Shown here: in pieces, positions 26,640 to 41,500 of the stretch
Layout of the letters: every line of letters starts with the position of its first letter
Numbering within the stretch: position 1 is the stretch's first letter
Source of the DNA: Halobacteriales archaeon QS_8_69_73
GTDB taxonomy: Archaea > Halobacteriota > Halobacteria > Halobacteriales > Haloarculaceae
NCBI GenBank assembly: GCA_003022945.1
Contig: PXRZ01000072.1
Span: 1 to 64,000 of the forward strand
Reading direction: 5' to 3'
DNA: 64,000 nucleotides
Program-made: the position numbers and the translations under genes
The notes under the pieces: generated by a model
The model's input: the letters and a program-made list of their open reading frames with translations, nothing else
Databases searched by the model: none
What the model was told of the DNA's origin: nothing

Positions 26640-27713
26640 TTACCGGCGGGCCAGCAGCGCGGCCGACAGCAGCGCGACGAGCGCCGCGACGGCACCCAGC
26701 CCGGGCCCGTCGGCGTCCGTGCCGGGGTCGGTCGGCGTGGCCGTCCCGGTCGGCGTCTCGGCTGCCGTCTCCGTTGCCGTCGGCGTCCCGCCCGCTCGCT
26801 GGGCGCTTTCGAAGGCATCCGCCATCGTCTGCAGCGCGACGACGACGCGCGGGCCCGGCTGGCTGACGTAGTTGGCGTCGACGGTGACGACCCGGTCGTT
26901 CCGGACCGCGGCGGTCGACGCGTAGGCCTCGGTATCCGGAACGCCGCCCTCGACGCCGCTGACGACGATGACCTCGGGGTTCCACTCGACGAGCGCCTCC
27001 TCGTTGATCTGGCCGTACCCCTGGACGCCGTTCTCGGCGGCGACGTTCGTCCCGCCCGCGGTCGTGATGAGCGAGTCGATGAACGTGCCGCCGCCGGCGG
27101 TGAAGTTGTCGGTGAAGTACATCACGCGCGGCGAATCGAACGCCTCGGTCCGGTCGCCGACGCTCTCGACGGTGGCGTTGTACTCCCGGTTGGTCTCCGC
27201 GGCGGCCGGGCAGGACCCGATGAGACGGCCGGTCCGCTCGGTCTTCCCGGCGATGAACGAAAGCGAGGTGCCGAAGCCGAACTTGTAGACGGTCTGGTCG
27301 GCGTCACGGAGGCTCTCGATCGTCTCGTCGGGGATGACGTTCGGCGCGAGCACGAGGTCGGCGTCCAGTTCGACGACGGCCTCCTGGTTGACGGTGAACT
27401 GGTCCTCCTGGAGGACGTCGTCCGTCTCCTCGATGCCCTCGAGGTACGACGTCGTCGGGTTCACCGGCGCGCCGACCACGCGGTCGTCGGCGCCGAGTTC
27501 CCAGACGGTCTGTGCGGCGCTGGCCTGCAGCACGACGATGCGCTGCGGTTCGCCGTCTACGGTTACGTTCGCGCCCGTGGCATCCTGCGCGGAGTACGGG
27601 AACGAACAGTCCGACGCCTCCTGCGGCGTCGCACCCGCGGCGGGGACGGCGGCAGCCGAAGCCGAGAGTACCAGCGACAGCACGAACAGCGCGGTGAGCG
27701 TCCGTCGAAGCAT
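26640..27713 (-). CDS. btuF: cobalamin ABC transporter substrate-binding protein with PGF-CTERM-like tail
   Basis: 357 residues. Surface receptor delivering corrinoid to BtuCD. Seen: Sec signal (about 1-28), periplasmic-binding fold with RIVVLQASAAQTVWELGADDRVVG and ADLVLAPNVIPDE, then a Thr/Pro/Glu linker near residue 310-330 and a tripartite C-terminus: PGLG, a hydrophobic helix, and ARR. The usual archaeosortase signal is PGF; here Leu replaces Phe. Divergent from btuCD with a shared 60-nt promoter region. Confidence 0.85.
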   Translation of the reverse strand: MLRRTLTALFVLSLVLSASAAAVPAAGATPQEASDCSFPYSAQDATGANVTVDGEPQRIVVLQASAAQTVWELGADDRVVGAPVNPTTSYLEGIEETDDVLQEDQFTVNQEAVVELDADLVLAPNVIPDETIESLRDADQTVYKFGFGTSLSFIAGKTERTGRLIGSCPAAAETNREYNATVESVGDRTEAFDSPRVMYFTDNFTAGGGTFIDSLITTAGGTNVAAENGVQGYGQINEEALVEWNPEVIVVSGVEGGVPDTEAYASTAAVRNDRVVTVDANYVSQPGPRVVVALQTMADAFESAQRAGGTPTATETAAETPTGTATPTDPGTDADGPGLGAVAALVALLSAALLARR

Positions 27714-31880: not shown

Positions 31881-34107
31881 CTACCTCCGGACGACCCGGG
31901 AGCCGTACACCAGCACGGCAGCGACGATCATGGCGATGACCAATATGGTGAACCGCGCCGGGCCGCCGCCGCCGGCGATCTCCTGGAGGCTACCGACGAT
32001 CGAGTCGTCGTCGGTGTCGGTCGACGATCCGCCGTCGGTCGGCGTCGGGGTCGCCGTCTCGCCGCCGGCCGACCCGGCACCGCTGTCGCCGCCGGTTCCG
32101 TCACCCGAGCCGTCGCCGCTTCCATCGTCGCTGCTGCCGGCACCGCCTTCGCCGATGCTACCGCTGCCGTCGCTACTACCATCGTCCCCACCACTACTGT
32201 CGCCACCGCTGCCGTCCCCATCACTGCCATCGCTATTTCCGTCGTTATCGCTTCCGTTCTCACCGCTTCCGTCGCTACTTCTGTCCCCACCATTGCCATC
32301 GCCACCGCTTTCGTCGCCACTGCCATCGCTCCCATCACCGCCGTCGCCGCCACTTCCGTCGCCATCGCCGCCATCGTCGGTCGACCGTTCGCCGACTGAC
32401 ACGACCGTACCGGTCGTTCGCGTGACGTCCTCGTCGCCGGGCGTCGTCGTCACGAGCAGCGACGCGTCGGTGGCGTCCGGCTCGGTGTCGAACCTGATGG
32501 CACGGTCGCCGCTCCGGCGGAGCTGGAAGCTGTCGCCCGCTTCGGTGGTCTCCTGGACCTCGAGAACGATCGTCCGGCCGTCGATCGCCTCGACGGTCGG
32601 CGCCGCGGTGTCGCCGGAGGTCGTCACGACCTCGAGCGACTGTGACTCGTCGAAGGTGACCCCCGTGTCCGCCAGCTCGACGGTGATCGTCGTGCCGGCG
32701 GCCATCATCCCGCCGATGTCGTCGGTGAGGTCGACCCGGACGTCGCCGTCGCCGGAGGCCGCCGTCCGGTCGGCCGCGACGGTCGTTCCGCCGGGCTCGA
32801 CGACCGGCGCGTGCGCCGACACCGGGTTGCCGCCCTCGACGAACACCGTCTCGGTCCTGTTCACCGGCTTGTGGGTGCCGTCGAGCTGTGCGACGAACTC
32901 CGCCGGCTCGACCGCCGTCGCGCCGCTGAGGTTGAATCTGATGTTTTCGACCTTCAGGTACCCCTCGCGATTGATCTGACAGCTGAGGTCGATCAGCACC
33001 GAGTCTTCGGTCACTCGCACGTCCTCGGTGCGCTGTTCGGCGACGGGACCGGGCAGCGCGCAGTCACCGCCCTCGGTGATACCTCGGGGGTCGCTGGAGG
33101 TGTCGAAGGAGATGTCTTCCCGGTACTCCTCGGGAATCTGGATGGCGAGGAGTTCGTTCTGTGCGTGGAATCCCTCGGTCTTCGCGTCGTCCGGCGCCTT
33201 TGCGAAGAACTTGGCGCCGTCGCTCGGGACCCCGTCGGCGCCGCGCGGGAGGTCGTTCCCGAGGCCAAGGAACTCGAGCCGCTCGGGCGTCACCGTCGTC
33301 GTCCCGGAGACGTCGCCGAACCGCCAGGTCGCCGCCTCGACGTCGGCGTCGTCGCTGGTGAACCGGAGCCCCTCCAGGGCCAGCGAACTGTTCGCCTCGG
33401 GATCGATGCTGTCGACGTCGACCGTCACCGTCCGCGCGGAGACGCCGGTGACCGCGGCGTCGGCACCGTCGGCGGTCGCCGTCGCCGAGGTGGCGTTAGT
33501 GTCGAAGGTGACTGTGCTGTCGTCGTCGAGCGTTAGCCGCGCGGTGCCGTTCTCGGGGAAGTCGCCGGCGGCCTCCTCGGTGAGCCGCAGGGTCGCCGGC
33601 CCCTCGCCGGCCTCCGCGATCGGTGCCTGCGCGGAGGCGCCGGCGGTGACGGCGACCGACGCCGGGGCGGCGGCCCCCTGTCGGGAGCCCGATTCCGGTC
33701 GTCGCCCCGCCCGTGACGTCGTCGGCCGTCCTGGCGACTTCGTCGGTCGCCCCTTCGGCGGTGTCGGCCGTCTCATCGGCCGTTTCCTCGGCGTTGTCGG
33801 CCGCCTCGTCTACGTCGGCCGCGTCGGTCGTTCCGTCGCCGGAGCCGTCCGAGGAGTCGCTCGAAGAATCGCCCGAGGGGTCGGTGTCGGCGGCGTCGGT
33901 GGTTCCGTCGTCGGTACTGTCCTCCGTGTCGGTCGGGTCGGCCGGGTCGTCGGCGCTCACGTCCGTCGCGGCGGTGGCGTCGTCGAGAGAGCCGTCGGCG
34001 ACCGTCTGGCCGGCGACGGCGACGGCTCCACCGACCATCGACAGCACCATCGCTGCTGCCAGAAGGACCGCCCGAACCCGTTCGCTCGTTTTCGATCGTT
34101 GATTCAT
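31881..34107 (-). pseudogene. large surface glycoprotein with Ser/Gly/Asp linker and C-terminal anchor, frameshifted
   Basis: Reading starts MNQRSKTSERVRAVLLAAAM, a haloarchaeal surface-glycoprotein signal peptide, followed by an acidic Asp/Thr segment to DDVTGGATTGIG. At about 33680-33692 the frame changes and continues SRQGAAAPASVAVTAG, several beta-rich (cohesin/BGTF-like) modules, then a 115-residue Ser/Gly/Asp linker with mixed serine codons, a Thr/Pro stretch, and a final helix RFTILVIAMIVAAVLVYGSRVVRR (core ILVIAMIVAAVLVYG). No PGF motif is present, so anchoring should not depend on archaeosortase. The frame change may be another short deletion or a sequencing error in a G/C run. Confidence 0.75.
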
Positions 34108-34248: not shown

Positions 34249-35078
34249 TCACCGACGGAGCTGGACGTCGAGACAGACGTTCGATTCGTGCGGCGCGTAC
34301 GACCGGACCCGGCGGCGGTTCTCGACGCGCACCTCGTACTCCGGGGCGGCGGCGGCCCTGATCGCCCGCTCGCCCGCGGCGAAGGGGGCGTCGTCCGGCT
34401 GGATGTCGTAGTAGTGGAGACGGCAGTCGTCGCCGGCGAGTTCGACGGCGGTATCGAGGAACGCGTCGGCGCTGTGCGGGAGGTTCAGTCACGCGGTCGG
34501 CGACGCCGTTGCGCTCGGCGTTCCGGCGGAGGTAGTCGACGGCCGTCTCGTTGAGATCGACGCCGACCGCCTCTGCTTCCCGTTTCGCGGCCGGGACGAC
34601 GAACGGCCCGACGCCGGCGAACATGTCGACGAGGAGTTCCCCGGCGTCGACCTGCTCGACGACCCGGTGTCGCTCGGTCGCCAACCGCGGCGAGAAGTAC
34701 ACCGCCGCGACGTCGACCGCGAAAGCACAGCCGTACTCCCGGTGGACGGTCTCGGTTCCGTCGCCGGCGAGGACGTCCCACTCCCGGACTCGGAGTTCGC
34801 CCTCGACGGGCGAGGCCCGGTCGAGCACGGTCTCGACCGGCAGGTCCGAGCCGACCAGCGCGTCCGCCAGCGCACGCGCCCGCTCGTCGTCGTCCTCGTC
34901 GACGATGGCGACGTCGCCGAGCCGCTCGTACGACGGCTCGAAGTCGAGCAAGCGGGATGTAGAGGAAGCCGTCCTCGACGGCGATCTCGTAGCCCTCCGC
35001 GATCGCGTTCCGCTCGGCGAGTCGCCGACGGGTCGTCTCGCCCTTCTCGCGGGGCACGCGGACGCAACTGACTGCCAT
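34249..35078 (-). pseudogene. trm5: tRNA (guanine37-N1)-methyltransferase Trm5, two deletions
   Basis: Trm5 methylates G37 next to the anticodon to keep reading frame. Three pieces are on one strand in three frames: MAVSCVRVPREKGETTRRRL..EDGFLYIPL; after about 34952, LLDFEPSYERLGDVAIVDEDD through VDMFAGVGPFVVPAAK and VGVDLNETAVDYLRRNAERNGVADRVT; after about 34488, LNLPHSADAFLDTAVEL to the C-terminus. Each join lacks about 25-35 residues known in the family: the linker before LLDFEP, and the region leading to the catalytic NLPH motif. This makes two independent lesions in one conserved gene. The stop is TGA at 34249. Confidence 0.85.
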
Positions 35079-35290
35079 CGCCGGGACTCCGGACGCGGGC
35101 GCGGTAAGGCTGGCGCTCCGCGTCGGCGCTCCCCGGGGCTGGCGCTCCGCGCCGACGGCCCCCGGAGCGACGCACGCGCTCGCTCGGGGCTGCCGGCCGA
35201 CGTACCGACGCGACCTCGCGACCGACTCGGGGCGCGCTGCGACCGCCCGGCCACCGCGTCGTTTTTGCCCGCGGCGGGCCGACGGAACGT

Positions 35291-35997
35291 ATGCTCACCT
35301 TCGTCGGCCTCGGCCTCTACGACGAGCGGTCTGTCACCGTCCGGGGGCGGGACGCCCTGCGGGCCGCCGACCACGTCTTCGCGGAGTTCTATACCAGCAC
35401 GCTCGCCGGCGCGACGGTCGCGGATCTCGAGGCCGAACACGGCGTCGAAATCGAGGTTCGCGACCGCGAGGGTGTCGAGCGGGACCCGGAGCCGATCCTC
35501 GCCGCCGCCGAGGCCGGCGACGCCGTCTTCCTCACCGCCGGCGACACGATGATCTCGACGACGCACGTCGACCTCCGGCTCCGGGCGGCCCGACGCGGTA
35601 TCGATACGTGGGTCGTCCACGGCACGACCGCCGAGGCCGCCGCCGCCTCGCTGTGCGGCCTCCAGAACTACCGCTTCGGGAAGGCGACGACGTTACCGTT
35701 CCCCTGGGCACCGGGCCGTCCGGCCCCGACCCCGACTTCGAGGAGTACATGACCGCTGACCGAGCGGCGGCGTTGCTCGCCGACGAGGTGGGCGGCGACG
35801 GCATCGGCGTCGCCGTCGCCCGCGCCGGCGGCCCGGACCCGGTCGTCGTCGCCGACGAGCTGTCGGCGCTCGCCGGGCGATTCTTCGGCGCCCCGCTACA
35901 CCTGCTGGTGGTCCCCGGCGACCTCCACGTCGTCGAGCGCGACGCCCTCGTGGAGCTGGCCGACGGCCCTGCGGACGTCCTCCCGGACCCCGTCTAG
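35291..35997 (+). pseudogene. dphB: diphthine synthase, internal deletion and frameshift
   Basis: DphB methylates the modified histidine of elongation factor aEF2 on the way to diphthamide. Frame 1 gives MLTFVGLGLYDERSVTVRGR, FLTAGDTMISTTHVDLRLRA and NYRFGKATTLPFPW. After a junction at about 35707-35730 the next frame gives DFEEYMTADRAAALLADEV and RAGGPDPVVVADELSAL to the C-terminus. The family has about 30 or more residues between, containing the ETIxxNxxxGLHTLVYLDI region. The 3' end overlaps artA by 4 nt, convergent. dphB next to artA is also found in other haloarchaea. Confidence 0.85.
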
Positions 35998-36890
35998 TCG
36001 TCGGCCCGCGCCGGGTCGGCGGCCGGGCGGTCCTCCAGCAGCCCGAGTTCGGCGGCCGTGTCCCGCTCCTCGCCGGTCGCCATGTAGGCGACGTCGTCGA
36101 CGATGACCAGCAGCTCCGGCAGCTCCCGAATGGCGAACCACGCGATGGACTCGCCGAACAGTTCCATCAGGTACGGCGCGTACGGCCCGTCGAACCATTG
36201 GTGGCCGAAGGCCAGTCCGATGAACGTCGTCCGGACGATGTTGAGAACGTAGATGACGCCGACCGCGACGGCCAGCGCGCGGAGCTTCCGGGCCAGCGGC
36301 GCCCGCACCGCCGCGATACAACCGCCGAAGATAGCCATACTCCCGAGTCCGGTGCAGGCCATCACGATGTTGTAGACGATGCCGTCGTGGGAGGGGTCGG
36401 CCGTCTCGAAGTGGAAGGCGCCGAGGTACCCCTCGTAGGCGGGCCGGTCGGCGATGGGCTCCAGCGTCGGGTCGTAGCCCAAGAACTCCATCAGCAGCGC
36501 CGTCTGCCGGGCGACGTGCTCGACGAGCAGTTGCCGGACGAACGGGATCGTCTCGGCCGGCATGTACACCAGCCCCATCACGGCGACGGCCCGCGAGAGG
36601 ACGAACAGCGAGTCCCGGCCCCCGACCAGCAGAAAGCCGGCGTACAGACAGGCGGGGACGCCGGCCAGCGCCAGCGCCGCCTCGACGACGCTGTTCTGGA
36701 CGAGGAAGAAAAACGGCGCCAGCAGCAGCCAGAAGACGGCGAACAGCGCCCACGCCGCCCCGACGACGTACCGCGCGGCGGCCGGGCGCCGCCGCTCGAG
36801 GAGGGCGCCGCCGCCGAACAGCGCCACCAGCACCCACGCCAGCGGGTCGGTGACCGCGAGTACGTCGACCGGGAGCATCGGTTCTACCAT
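35994..36890 (-). CDS. artA: archaeosortase A
   Basis: 298 residues, about eight membrane helices. Transpeptidase-like enzyme that removes PGF-CTERM tails and links surface proteins to membrane lipid. Seen: the catalytic Cys region MACTGLGSMAIFGG near residue 175, the catalytic Arg region YVLNIVRTTFIGLAFGHQWF near 215, and HDGIVYNIV before the Cys. The C-terminal 35 residues are a soluble acidic tail. Start MVEPMLPVDVL, with an alternative at the second Met. Substrates in the same region include the S-layer-like protein at 38571. Confidence 0.92.
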   Translation of the reverse strand: MVEPMLPVDVLAVTDPLAWVLVALFGGGALLERRRPAAARYVVGAAWALFAVFWLLLAPFFFLVQNSVVEAALALAGVPACLYAGFLLVGGRDSLFVLSRAVAVMGLVYMPAETIPFVRQLLVEHVARQTALLMEFLGYDPTLEPIADRPAYEGYLGAFHFETADPSHDGIVYNIVMACTGLGSMAIFGGCIAAVRAPLARKLRALAVAVGVIYVLNIVRTTFIGLAFGHQWFDGPYAPYLMELFGESIAWFAIRELPELLVIVDDVAYMATGEERDTAAELGLLEDRPAADPARADD

Positions 36891-36929
36891 AGATCGGTCG
36901 TCTGAAGTCGTTGTCGGCCTGCCGTCTCA

Positions 36930-37391
36930 CTACCGGACGTGGGTCGCCCGGTGGCGGTCGTCGTAGGCCGCCAGCCCCGGACCGGCTACCGACGTGACGC
37001 CGAAGTCGTCGTACAGCGTCGAGTGGGTGTAGTCGACGAACGTCATCGGCACCACCAGGTCGCCGTCGAGGTCGGCCGCCGTCGCCTCCGCGTCCGCCCG
37101 GAGGTCGAGGCGGCGACCGCCGTCGGACGTCGAGACCACGACGTCGTCGTCGATGGCCCGGAGCCGGCGGCCGGCGACCCGCTCGTCGTACCACACCCGG
37201 ATGCTGTCGGCGACGAGGCCAGCGAGGTCCTGCTCGAGGAGGTTCGTCCCGTAGCCGAGTTCGCCGTAGCCAAGCAGCGCGTCGCCGGCGGCTCGGACGG
37301 CGCCGCCGGCCGACGTCTCCCCGGCGCCGGCGAGGAAGCGCCGCCGGGAGACGTCCGGGAACTCCGCGACCCGGGGCGTCTCCTCGGTCAC
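36930..37391 (-). CDS. haloarchaeal protein coupled to archaeosortase paralogue, unknown function
   Basis: 153 residues. GTG start that overlaps the stop of the upstream archaeosortase paralogue (GTGA), so translation is coupled. Seen: VSRRRFLAGAGETSAGGAVR at residues 14-33, which resembles a Tat motif but lacks a long hydrophobic stretch, then LLGYGELGYGTNLLEQDLA, IRVWYDERVAGRRLRAIDD and the C-terminal VVPMTFVDYTHSTLYDDFG. I recall longer relatives with the same ends, so an in-frame internal loss is possible between DLDGD and VVPMTF, but this is unsure. No catalytic motif recognised. Confidence 0.65.
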   Translation of the reverse strand: MTEETPRVAEFPDVSRRRFLAGAGETSAGGAVRAAGDALLGYGELGYGTNLLEQDLAGLVADSIRVWYDERVAGRRLRAIDDDVVVSTSDGGRRLDLRADAEATAADLDGDLVVPMTFVDYTHSTLYDDFGVTSVAGPGLAAYDDRHRATHVR

Positions 37392-38277
37392 CGCCGCTCG
37401 CCCCCGTCGGTCGCCGTCGACGGCGGCCGCAGCCGCACCTCGTCGCCGGTCACCAGGTACAGCAGGTCCTCGGCGATTCCGAGCAGTTGCGGCACCCACC
37501 GCGAGACCAGCCACGCGATGCCGACCAGGGCGACCAGCGCGAGACTCTGCGACAGCACACGGTCGGCGAAGTAAAACGACACCAGCGAGGGGTCGGACAG
37601 TCCGAACGCCGCCATCACCGGGCCCTCCAGCGCCGGGTGGTCGAACCAGGCGTAGCCGTTGGCTGCCGCGATGAAGGCGTTGCGGACGAGGTTGAGCACC
37701 CAGATGATCGACAGCGACACCGCGAGCGCCACCGCCTTCCGGCGCGGCGGCGCCCGGACGGCGCCGATGAGCCCGCCGAAAATGGCGAGACTCCCGATGC
37801 CCGTACAGGCGAATATCACCCGCGAGGCCCGCTCCGTCCCCGGGAACCAGAACGTGTTCCGCAGGGTCGACTCCTCGGGGTCCTCGATTAGTTGCATCCC
37901 GTCGCCGAGGCCGGCGGCGTCCAGCAGCCACGCCGTCTGCCGGGCCACCGTCTCGATGAGAAACCCCCGGATCGGCGCCGACATCTGGAACGGCAGGTAG
38001 ATCAGCCCCATCAGCGCCACGGCGCGGGACAGCACGAGCAGCGACTCCCGGCCGGCCAGCAGCGTCCGGCCGACGTACAGACACAGCGGCACCGCCGCCA
38101 CCACGAGCACCGTTTCGACGATGCTGCGGTGGACGACGGCGAACTGGTGGATCAACAACAGCCAGAAGACGGCGAACAGCGCCCAGGCGCCGGCCGTCAC
38201 CCGGCGAGCGAGGTCGCGCCGCTCTCGGCGGTCGGCGAGCACCCCCAGAGCTCCGTCAGCGACTGCGCCGGGAGCAT
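37388..38277 (-). pseudogene. second archaeosortase (ArtA paralogue), N-terminal deletion and frameshift
   Basis: The main part is intact: VTAGAWALFAVFWLLL, FACTGIGSLAIFGGLIGAVRAPP with the catalytic Cys, and WVLNLVRNAFIAAANGYAWF with the catalytic Arg, so the active site is kept. At the 5' end an ATG at 38277 reads MLPAQSLTEL, the counterpart of MLPVDVLAV in artA. It then shifts frame near 38245 into LADRRERRDLARR, skipping the first membrane helix. A longer open frame from 38344 exists but its first 30 residues look non-coding. The paralogue shares roughly the same helix plan as artA. Confidence 0.75.
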
Positions 38278-38392
38278 CCTTGCTCGAAACTACGTCACGA
38301 CCGTCATATGTCTTGTCGTCGCGGGCGCGGCCGAAACGGAACACCCGCCGGCGCGTCGGTCGGAGCCGGCACGCTGTCGGCGGGGCGTCCGC

Positions 38393-38570: not shown

Positions 38571-41500
38571 TTAGAAGTCGGTCCGACGGGCAGCCAGCAG
38601 CGCCGCGCCGATGAGCGCGATCAGCGCCAGCACGGCACCGAAGCCGGGCTGGTCGGTGGGCGTCTCGGTCGGCGTCGGCGTCGTCGGCTCCGGCGTCGGC
38701 GTCGGCGTCGGCGTCGACGGCTCCGGCGTCGGCGTCTCCTGCTCGAAGGTGACCGACGCGGAGTCCGTCACGGCTGCGTCGCCGGCCGTGTACGGACCGT
38801 CTTCGCCGCCTTCCGTCTCGACGAAGTCGTACTCTTCGTTGTCGTTGGTGTCCCGGTGCGGCATCGCGATGGCGGTCTGCGTGTCACCATCGCTTCTCAC
38901 GTACGGATCGTCGAGTTCGACCTCGACGTCGCTGAAGTTGCCCTCCTCGAGGTACTCGGAGGACCCACGGACGCTGTCGAACGTCGCGCCGTCCTGCAGC
39001 GTGCCGTCGTGGATGGTGATGAAGCCGCCTTCCGGCAGGAAGCCGGAGTCGACCGTGATGGTCGACACCTCGTCCTGGTCGGTCGAGGCCGTGGTTTCGC
39101 TGATAGCCACTTGTGCGGCCCGGCCCTCGATGACGCGGCCGTCCGTCTCGGCGCTGTCCTCGATACCCGCTCTGGTCGCGGTCACGACGAACGTGCGTCC
39201 GACCTCGTTGTCCGAGAAGTCGAACGTGCTGTCACCGAAGCTGCCGTCGTCCTGGACCTCGACGTCGGCCCGCTGGAAGACGGGTGCCAGCTCGGAGGTG
39301 TCGTTGCTATTGTTGCGCCGCGTCCGGGTCGAGGAGTCCACCGCGATGGTGAGATTCGTTCCGGGTGCGACGTTGGTCGTCCCAGCGATCTCCTGGTCCT
39401 CGGCCGGTTCGACACGGACCTCACTGCCGTCTCCGGTGTCGAACTCCGCCGTGCGGTCCTCGATATCGAGGTTGACCGACGTGCTCTCTTCGGGGGCGTA
39501 CTCGTCGATGCCGCCCTCGAAGGTCTCGTTGAAGCCCGACCCGACGTTGAACTCGAACCTGTAGAGGTCACCGGTTTCGATCTGCTCGTCGGTGTTGGTT
39601 TCGTCGGCGGTCGAGCGGTTCAGGCCGATCTGCTGGACGTCGGTGACGAGGTAGACCGTCTCGTTGTCCTCGTCGATGACGAACTCGAAGCCCTCGCCGG
39701 TCGGGTCCGTGAACTCGTTCCGCTTCGGCTCGCGGTTCTGCCGGAAGTTCACCTGCTCGAGCGTGAGGTTCAGGATCGGATCGTCCTCACCGTTCGAACC
39801 GAGCGCGGTGCCGCCTTCCTGTGCCTCGCGCAGAATCTCCTCGCCCTCCGCGCTCTCCAGCGAGCCGGCGCCGGTGGACTCGGTACGGATCGCGTCGAAC
39901 GCACCGAAGACACCGGAGATGTTGACTCGGTGGATCAGGAGGTCACGCTCGGCGCTGCTGCGGTCGTCGTCGCGGTCCGACAGCGTGACGACCTCGGTCT
40001 CCGAGAGGTCCTCGTTCTCGGACAGCTCCGAGACCTCGTCGGCGTTGGACAGCGACGTGTCGGGGTGCCGGAGCTGGTCCAGCGACTCGTAGCTCGACCG
40101 GCGGATGTTGAGCACACCCGCGTCGACCTCGCGCTCGCGCTCCGTCTGCCGGGTCTCGATCGTCAGGTCGTACTGACCCTCGTCGAGAACGCCGGTCAGC
40201 CGATCCGTCCGGCGGTTGGCCGTCACGAGCTCGCCCTCGGTCACCTCGTAGGCTTCCGTGACGTTCTCTCCCTCGACGTTGCCGGCGAGGAAGGTGTTCA
40301 TCCGGATCTCGATTTCGCCGTCATCGTTCGGCTCGACGACGAGTGCCGTCTCGTAGTTGTTCCGCTCCTCGTCGCCGATCGTGACGGTGACGGCCCTGAT
40401 GTCGGTCGTCTCGATCGAGATCGTCGAGTCCGAGTCGCCCTCGTCGCTCTGAATGTCGCCACGCTTGACCGTGAACGCCCCGCTGTCGGAGGCGAACTCG
40501 GCGTCAGCGTCCGGCTCCTCCTCGACTTCGACCTCCGCGCTCGCGTTGGCGGTGGTGTCCTGCACCTCGAAGTCGAACGAGAAGTTGCCTGTGTCGTCGA
40601 AGTTGAACAGGATCGAGCCGGTTTCGTTGATGCCGTCCACCCGGACCGAGTCGTCGCTCGGCGAGCGGTCGGTGTTGATGTCGGTGGACGTGCTGTCCTG
40701 GATGATGCTCGTCAGCTCGCTCTGACTCAGGTTGTCCGAGTCGACGAACAGGTCGAAGTTGTCACGGTTGGAGTCGACCTCCAGCGTCACGTTGTCGCCT
40801 TCGAACGCCGTGTCCGATTCGAACTCGGTGCTGAGCGTCTGCGGGACGATTTCGACGGCGTCGTCGTCCGCGTTGTCGTTACCGCCGGCACCAGTATCGA
40901 ATCCCTGCTGTTCGCCGTCTTCGTTGACCTCGACGATCGTCGGATCGTTGAACTGGGTACCGTTTTCGTCTTCACCCTGTGCCGTGATGACGACGCGCTC
41001 GTTGTCCGGCACGTTCTCGGTTTCGATCTGTGCGCCCTCGCTGTCGTTCAGCGAGATCTGGGTGATCAGCGCGCCGATGTTCTCGTCACCGTTACGATCG
41101 CCCGGCGTGTAGAGCCGGAGCTCGTAGTCCTCGATCTGGCCGCCGTTGGTGTCGGCCTGGAAGTCCAGGATCTGGCCCTTGAACCGGGTTTTACCGCCGC
41201 CGAAGCTGTCGTCGGTGTTCCGATCGCGGCGGTCGCCGTCGCCGCCGGCGTCATCGATCTCGTAGTTGTCGGTCGCCTCGGGGGCCTCGCTGAAGCCGAA
41301 GTTGGTAGGAGCGCCCGAGCGGAGCTTCCCCTCGTACGTGTCCTCGACCGCCGGGTTGTTCACGCCGTTGCTGATGTTGACCAGCAGGGTGGCGCCGTCG
41401 TCAGGCTCGAAGTTCTCCTCGAAGTTGGCCTGGACGGTGTCATCCGTGCCGTCTTCGTCCTTGTCGATGACTCTGACGTCATCCAGGGGGACGGGCGCCG

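Follow-up and report, generated by a model that had tools for sequence, protein, structure and literature searches.

Why should a haloarchaeal genome keep two archaeosortases A (ArtA), enzymes that anchor surface proteins to the membrane, close together, and what is the gene lodged between them? The question touches on ArtA recognition beyond PGF and on lipid attachment. We analyzed a stretch of 64,000 nucleotides, here called the window, from contig PXRZ01000072.1 of Halobacteriales archaeon QS_8_69_73, a genome assembled in 79 contigs and 76% complete, whose genus, as given by its named relatives, is Natronomonas. An initial annotation of the same DNA had pointed to two archaeosortases with a translationally coupled partner of 153 residues: the locus is real and interesting, and the partner was mis-described owing to damaged sequence. 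Our overall reading, to which we assign a probability of roughly 0.6, is that the window carries a damaged copy of a conserved anchoring module, with two ArtA subtypes that would sort different tails and a thiol partner presumably exported by the Tat route, the lesions being probably artefacts. The relevant features are the following:

26643..26720, minus strand: tail of the G class, ADGPGLG, belonging to another surface protein, a predicted substrate of the Tyr-type ArtA
35994..36890, minus strand: downstream ArtA, Tyr-type (clade G, assigned from the tree), 298 aa as read, TIGR04125 score 268.6 bits
36930..37391, minus strand: remnant of a partner of about 340 aa, with a Tat-like N terminus and the C-terminal Asp region retained, Cys and His gone
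37388..37391, minus strand: GTGA in which the partner's start overlaps the stop of the paralogue; GTGA or ATGA is kept at artA-partner and several pssD-partner junctions
37388..38277, minus strand: upstream ArtA, the "paralogue", Ser/Thr-type (clade Q), TIGR04125 score 320.4 bits
38571..41843, minus strand: surface glycoprotein that carries halo_sig_pep at its N terminus, contains a BGTF domain and has the Q-class tail TDQPGFG; it is probably processed by the Q-type ArtA next to it

The three reading frames lie on the minus strand where they were first placed, and both sortases belong to the archaeosortase A family, scoring well above the curated TIGR04125 cut-off of 75 bits. The catalytic residues of the H. 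volcanii enzyme are Cys173, Arg214 and Arg253 (PMC9263693). Equivalents of the first two are present in 74 out of 74 aligned ArtA, both window copies included, in agreement with the catalytic Cys and Arg motifs originally noticed in the two proteins. The Arg253 equivalent is an Arg in the paralogue, is deleted in the window artA, and is replaced by Gly or Ser in the Natronomonas orthologues of the latter, whose activity could be altered. In the 74-ArtA alignment, the same position is taken by Asn, Ser or His also in some genomes with a single ArtA, so that absence of the third Arg is no proof of inactivity.

With both sortases above the cut-off, catalytic Cys and first Arg in place, and a PGF-CTERM surface glycoprotein nearby, the locus resembles the known archaeosortase A/PGF-CTERM system (TIGR04125/TIGR04126; Haloferax volcanii HVO_0915); 12 PGF-CTERM matches are encoded in the genome. 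It differs from that system in having two subtypes per genome, with a differing residue before PGF, and a predicted exported partner gene overlapping one of the sortases. The occurrence of several archaeosortases with different tails in one genome also recalls archaeosortases B, C and others recognizing non-PGF tails (PMC9723798); those, however, form families of their own, whose tails are VPXXXP or PEF, whereas here both enzymes are of the ArtA family and both tails retain [P/A]GF.

All three genes of the block are damaged in the window, as seen by comparison with the nearest relative, MAG QS_4_69_225 (G011), which is about 88–96% identical in nucleotide sequence across the locus. The downstream artA is not intact: it has a 75-bp in-frame deletion near window 36146, which removes one membrane segment and appears as a gap over positions 213-241 of the TIGR04125 profile, among them the one that holds the third catalytic residue. 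The partner lacks 549 bp, also in frame, at window 37063, a loss that took away the conserved Cys and His. The 153 residues are thus what is left of a larger protein, since they align with positions 1-113 and about 287-337 in a protein of 338 aa; a distinct family of 153-aa partners was rejected, because relatives have ORFs of about 340 aa matched by both ends of the window protein. The paralogue is damaged at its 5' end, as had been observed: a loss of 55 bp at about window 38248 breaks the frame and removes the first membrane segment. The body of the gene, which is in frame over 37388-38248 and open up to a GTG at 38344, does not share the frame of the ATG at 38277 (37388-38277 spans 890 bp, a length that cannot be divided by 3). 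At the other end of the gene, the partner does start inside the paralogue stop codon, its GTG overlapping the TGA as GTGA.

We consider it probable, at a good deal better than even odds, that these lesions are errors of the metagenomic assembly. In the neighboring trm5 (34252-35078) and dph5 (35068-35994), short deletions seen against G011 have broken each gene into several frames: the damage is therefore regional and blind to reading frame, which makes an assembly artefact likely, and deletions of this type seem to affect the contig as a whole. About 12 further deletions of 54–120 bp, with lengths disregarding the reading frame and mostly without microhomology, were found against the same reference, and 14 out of 39 matched window genes are incomplete or split, some of them at contig or rearrangement ends. 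Genuine deletions, in a trio decaying within the organism and left with at most one working enzyme, would account for the reading frames kept open by the 75- and 549-bp losses, and for a dN/dS of 0.44 in the partner remnant versus 0.13–0.19 in the sortase remains, values that in the latter indicate purifying selection. Such decay is nevertheless unlikely, given that deletions of the same kind break dph5 and trm5, that G011 in turn lacks, in the pairwise comparison, similar segments present in the window, and that microhomology is scarce and completeness low.

TIGR04125 was found in 390 out of 391 genomes class-wide, with a single match in nearly all, as expected from the notion that haloarchaea typically have one ArtA. 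An intact artA-partner-artA arrangement is present in other Natronomonas genomes, namely G001, G002, G007, G009, G010 and G011; in G398 the order is kept and the partner shortened, and in G360 the partner is inverted between the two artA copies. Seven further Natronomonas genomes (G003, G004, G005, G006, G008, G063 and G113) feature one artA followed by the partner. Natronomonas genomes with a single ArtA always retain the upstream copy, which identifies the "paralogue" as the main, universal enzyme of the genus and the downstream artA as the extra, dispensable one: the roles initially given to the two genes have to be exchanged. Nor is the paralogue, within the genus, a rare duplicate lacking conserved context, as the partner is its conserved neighbour and, where this was examined, shares a GTGA or ATGA overlap with the upstream artA. 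Several other genomes have such an overlap between pssD and the partner.

In four genomes of the window's family (G179, G240, G269 and G380; loci L386-L389), a much more divergent second TIGR04125 match, of 132–174 bits, was observed, possibly representing another archaeosortase subtype; because of this weak match they were left out of the two-type genomes. In G242, one gene appears as two matches.

A maximum-likelihood tree of 74 ArtA falls into two sides, with support 94/94; being midpoint-rooted, it describes a split and not a dated duplication. In genomes with both types, the two copies are always found on opposite sides. The side named clade G contains the downstream Natronomonas copies and the B copies of G170, G173, G315 and G397, along with most single copies of the window's family and family f4. 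Clade Q contains the upstream Natronomonas copies and the A copies of the same four genomes, as well as families f6, f7 and f13 and genus g17. The site that best separates the two sides is position -6 from the catalytic Cys, occupied by Tyr or Phe in 29 clade-G copies compared (the rest being mostly from f4) and by Ser or Thr in 36 out of 36 clade-Q copies.

Substrate tails divide along the same line. We collected 170 PGF-CTERM tails from 28 genomes, a sample made mostly of best-scoring matches. Where only Tyr-type enzymes are encoded, all tails (36 out of 36) have Gly before PGF; where only Ser/Thr-type enzymes are encoded, Gly is found in just 1 of 74, the others having Gln (51), Leu (11) or, in the remainder, Ile, Val, Ser, Thr, Met, His or Ala. 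All five two-type genomes sampled contain both tail classes, with Gly in 37 of 57 tails. The Fisher value for the comparison of Tyr-type-only with Ser/Thr-type-only tails, 3e-28, ignores shared ancestry and is not to be taken literally, and contrasts within lineages are therefore a better basis for judging. In Natronomonas, Gly tails occur where the Tyr-type enzyme is present, while Q-only genomes have almost none; in group g18, Gln tails occur where the Ser/Thr-type is present, as seen by comparing the G-only G250 and G383 with G170, which has both types. The f4 genome G032 has a Val at -6 and Thr, Ile or Ser before PGF, in spite of its place on the G side of the tree, suggesting that the tail split tracks the -6 residue better than the clade. 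The window genome itself features both classes, TDQPGFG at 38583 and ADGPGLG at 26643, with SDGPGF further along the contig at 101106. In the window, as in G002, G074, G145, G170, G268 and G315, the tail of the surface glycoprotein adjoining the Q-type enzyme is of the Q class.

Taken as a whole, these data fit a damaged Natronomonas cell-surface anchoring module composed of surface glycoprotein, Q-type ArtA, a presumably exported partner enzyme and Tyr-type ArtA, in which the two sortases would be long-diverged subtypes, each cleaving its own tail class. The Tyr-type, with a bulky residue at -6, would take Gly before P/AGF, and the Ser/Thr-type, with a small one, Gln or another larger residue; the -6 residue may thus help to set tail choice through the space available in the active site. 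The suggestion that the second enzyme serves another tail signal, made when only the window had been seen, is supported at the sequence level by the pairing of both enzyme types with both tail classes in the sampled genomes. The correlation is a comparative one, and, clade and tail class both being inherited, it corresponds to few effective events, in about three lineages.

For this reason, one may ask whether the two enzymes act on identical sets of tails, with a neutral residue before PGF and with enzyme and cargo inherited or transferred together. Tail class does follow lineage, and the G-tailed cargo of Natronomonas includes tandem paralogues, whose tails are partly common by descent. Yet the two tail classes recur in the unrelated cargo families Peripla_BP_2, CarboxypepD_reg and DUF7490, Q-only Natronomonas genomes are almost devoid of Gly tails, and both classes coexist in the two-type genomes of three lineages. 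A neutral residue is thus in our opinion improbable, and we favor two subtypes with distinct tail preferences. Two ArtA subtypes that occur together in nature, and whose tails can be told apart, would permit a direct mapping of specificity, by setting position -6 of the enzyme against the position that precedes PGF in the tail.

The number of PGF-CTERM matches was also considered as a general correlate of two ArtA: the relationship is clean in Natronomonas (12–24 matches with two ArtA, 5–7 with one) and fails across other genera, and was rejected. Among G-tailed proteins, Peripla_BP_2 substrate-binding proteins ending in GDGAGFG were observed at L226:1495-2562 and L229:1498-2565. Two-ArtA Natronomonas genomes contain tandem arrays of proteins, mostly of about 340–390 aa, with G-class PGF tails (G010 C1:2513276-2516999 and G002 C1:1514170-1519035); those tested have no Pfam domain beyond the tail. 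In the window, 31881-33776 encodes a large acidic surface-type protein with no family match, whose C-terminal membrane tail is not PGF-CTERM.

The partner was detected in 59 of the 391 haloarchaeal genomes. Neither the 153-aa window protein, searched against Pfam, nor the family, searched against Pfam, NCBIfam and PDB sequences, gave a match. Invariant in 55 sequences are two N-terminal Arg, C245, H278, H280 and several further Arg, while D303 is nearly so. The invariant Arg-Arg may belong to a Tat signal, and a few members match TAT_signal models weakly. In an AlphaFold2 model (mean pLDDT 87.6), a helix starts at C245 and strands lie beside the His and Asp residues, so that conserved Cys, His and Asp have the order and the matching secondary structure of papain-like Cys-His-Asp enzymes of the arylamine N-acetyltransferase/transglutaminase type. 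Foldseek searches against PDB and viral models returned nothing at E<=0.001; arylamine N-acetyltransferases and an amide synthase recur among the weak, non-significant matches. Since the partner differs from these acyltransferases and transglutaminases in having no significant sequence or fold match with them, the modelled resemblance is a lead only, and we do not file the partner as a member.

The 55 full-length partners, from 54 genomes, adjoin artA in 23 cases (22 genomes), pssD in 18 and neither in 14, and in the partner tree artA-neighbour and pssD-neighbour members form largely separate groups. The adjacent pssD passes the threshold of the model NF038088 ("protein sorting system archaetidylserine decarboxylase") and is single-copy in 17 of the 18 genomes tested, not being found in the remaining one. 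In H. volcanii, HvPssD and HvPssA are required for ArtA-dependent processing (PMC7157517). The partner thus recurs next to two different genes of one pathway, the ArtA-PssA-PssD lipid-anchoring pathway, in whose description, in the passages of PMC7157517 consulted, it is not named. The concern that it might occur mostly without archaeosortases is borne out to the extent that 32 of 54 genomes do not have it next to artA, but in 18 of these it is beside pssD, itself an ArtA-pathway gene.

The partner is thus most likely a Tat-exported thiol enzyme acting with ArtA and PssD in C-terminal lipid anchoring, export and chemistry both being predictions; it would act outside the membrane on the anchoring reaction. 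A more daring and quite tentative version would make it the missing lipid-anchoring step, an exported Cys-His-Asp acyltransferase acting on ArtA-processed proteins, for instance passing them to archaetidylethanolamine supplied by PssD, with the surface proteome divided between two ArtA subtypes according to a single residue of the tail. Conversely, the partner might be an independent exported protein, merely hitch-hiking with artA and pssD: the 14 cases beside neither gene, and its absence from most haloarchaea, could be read in this way. We hold this for doubtful, because two separate contexts both involve ArtA-pathway genes, with 4-bp stop-start overlaps in several genomes each, and because pssD is single-copy. 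A role in anchoring, which we prefer, does not amount to a strict need for the partner on the side of the second ArtA, as had been envisaged, or of its tail class: Q-class tails are present in the partner-less G215, G241 and G323, and the partner was accordingly rejected as a determinant of this class. A transglutaminase acting on the tail Gln is not favored either, Gln being not strictly kept (Leu, Ile, Val, Ser and Thr also occur).

In the open-access literature searched, no earlier description of the ArtA subtypes or of the partner was found. A conserved, predicted exported gene tied to both artA and pssD provides a concrete candidate component of anchoring, in culturable species. In some genomes lacking adjacent artA or pssD, a twin-arginine protein with a HETLHTF/HEAFHTF motif, a putative metalloprotease, lies beside or near the partner (L146:4964-5884, with no Pfam match, L170:2588-3682 and L185:4961-5986).
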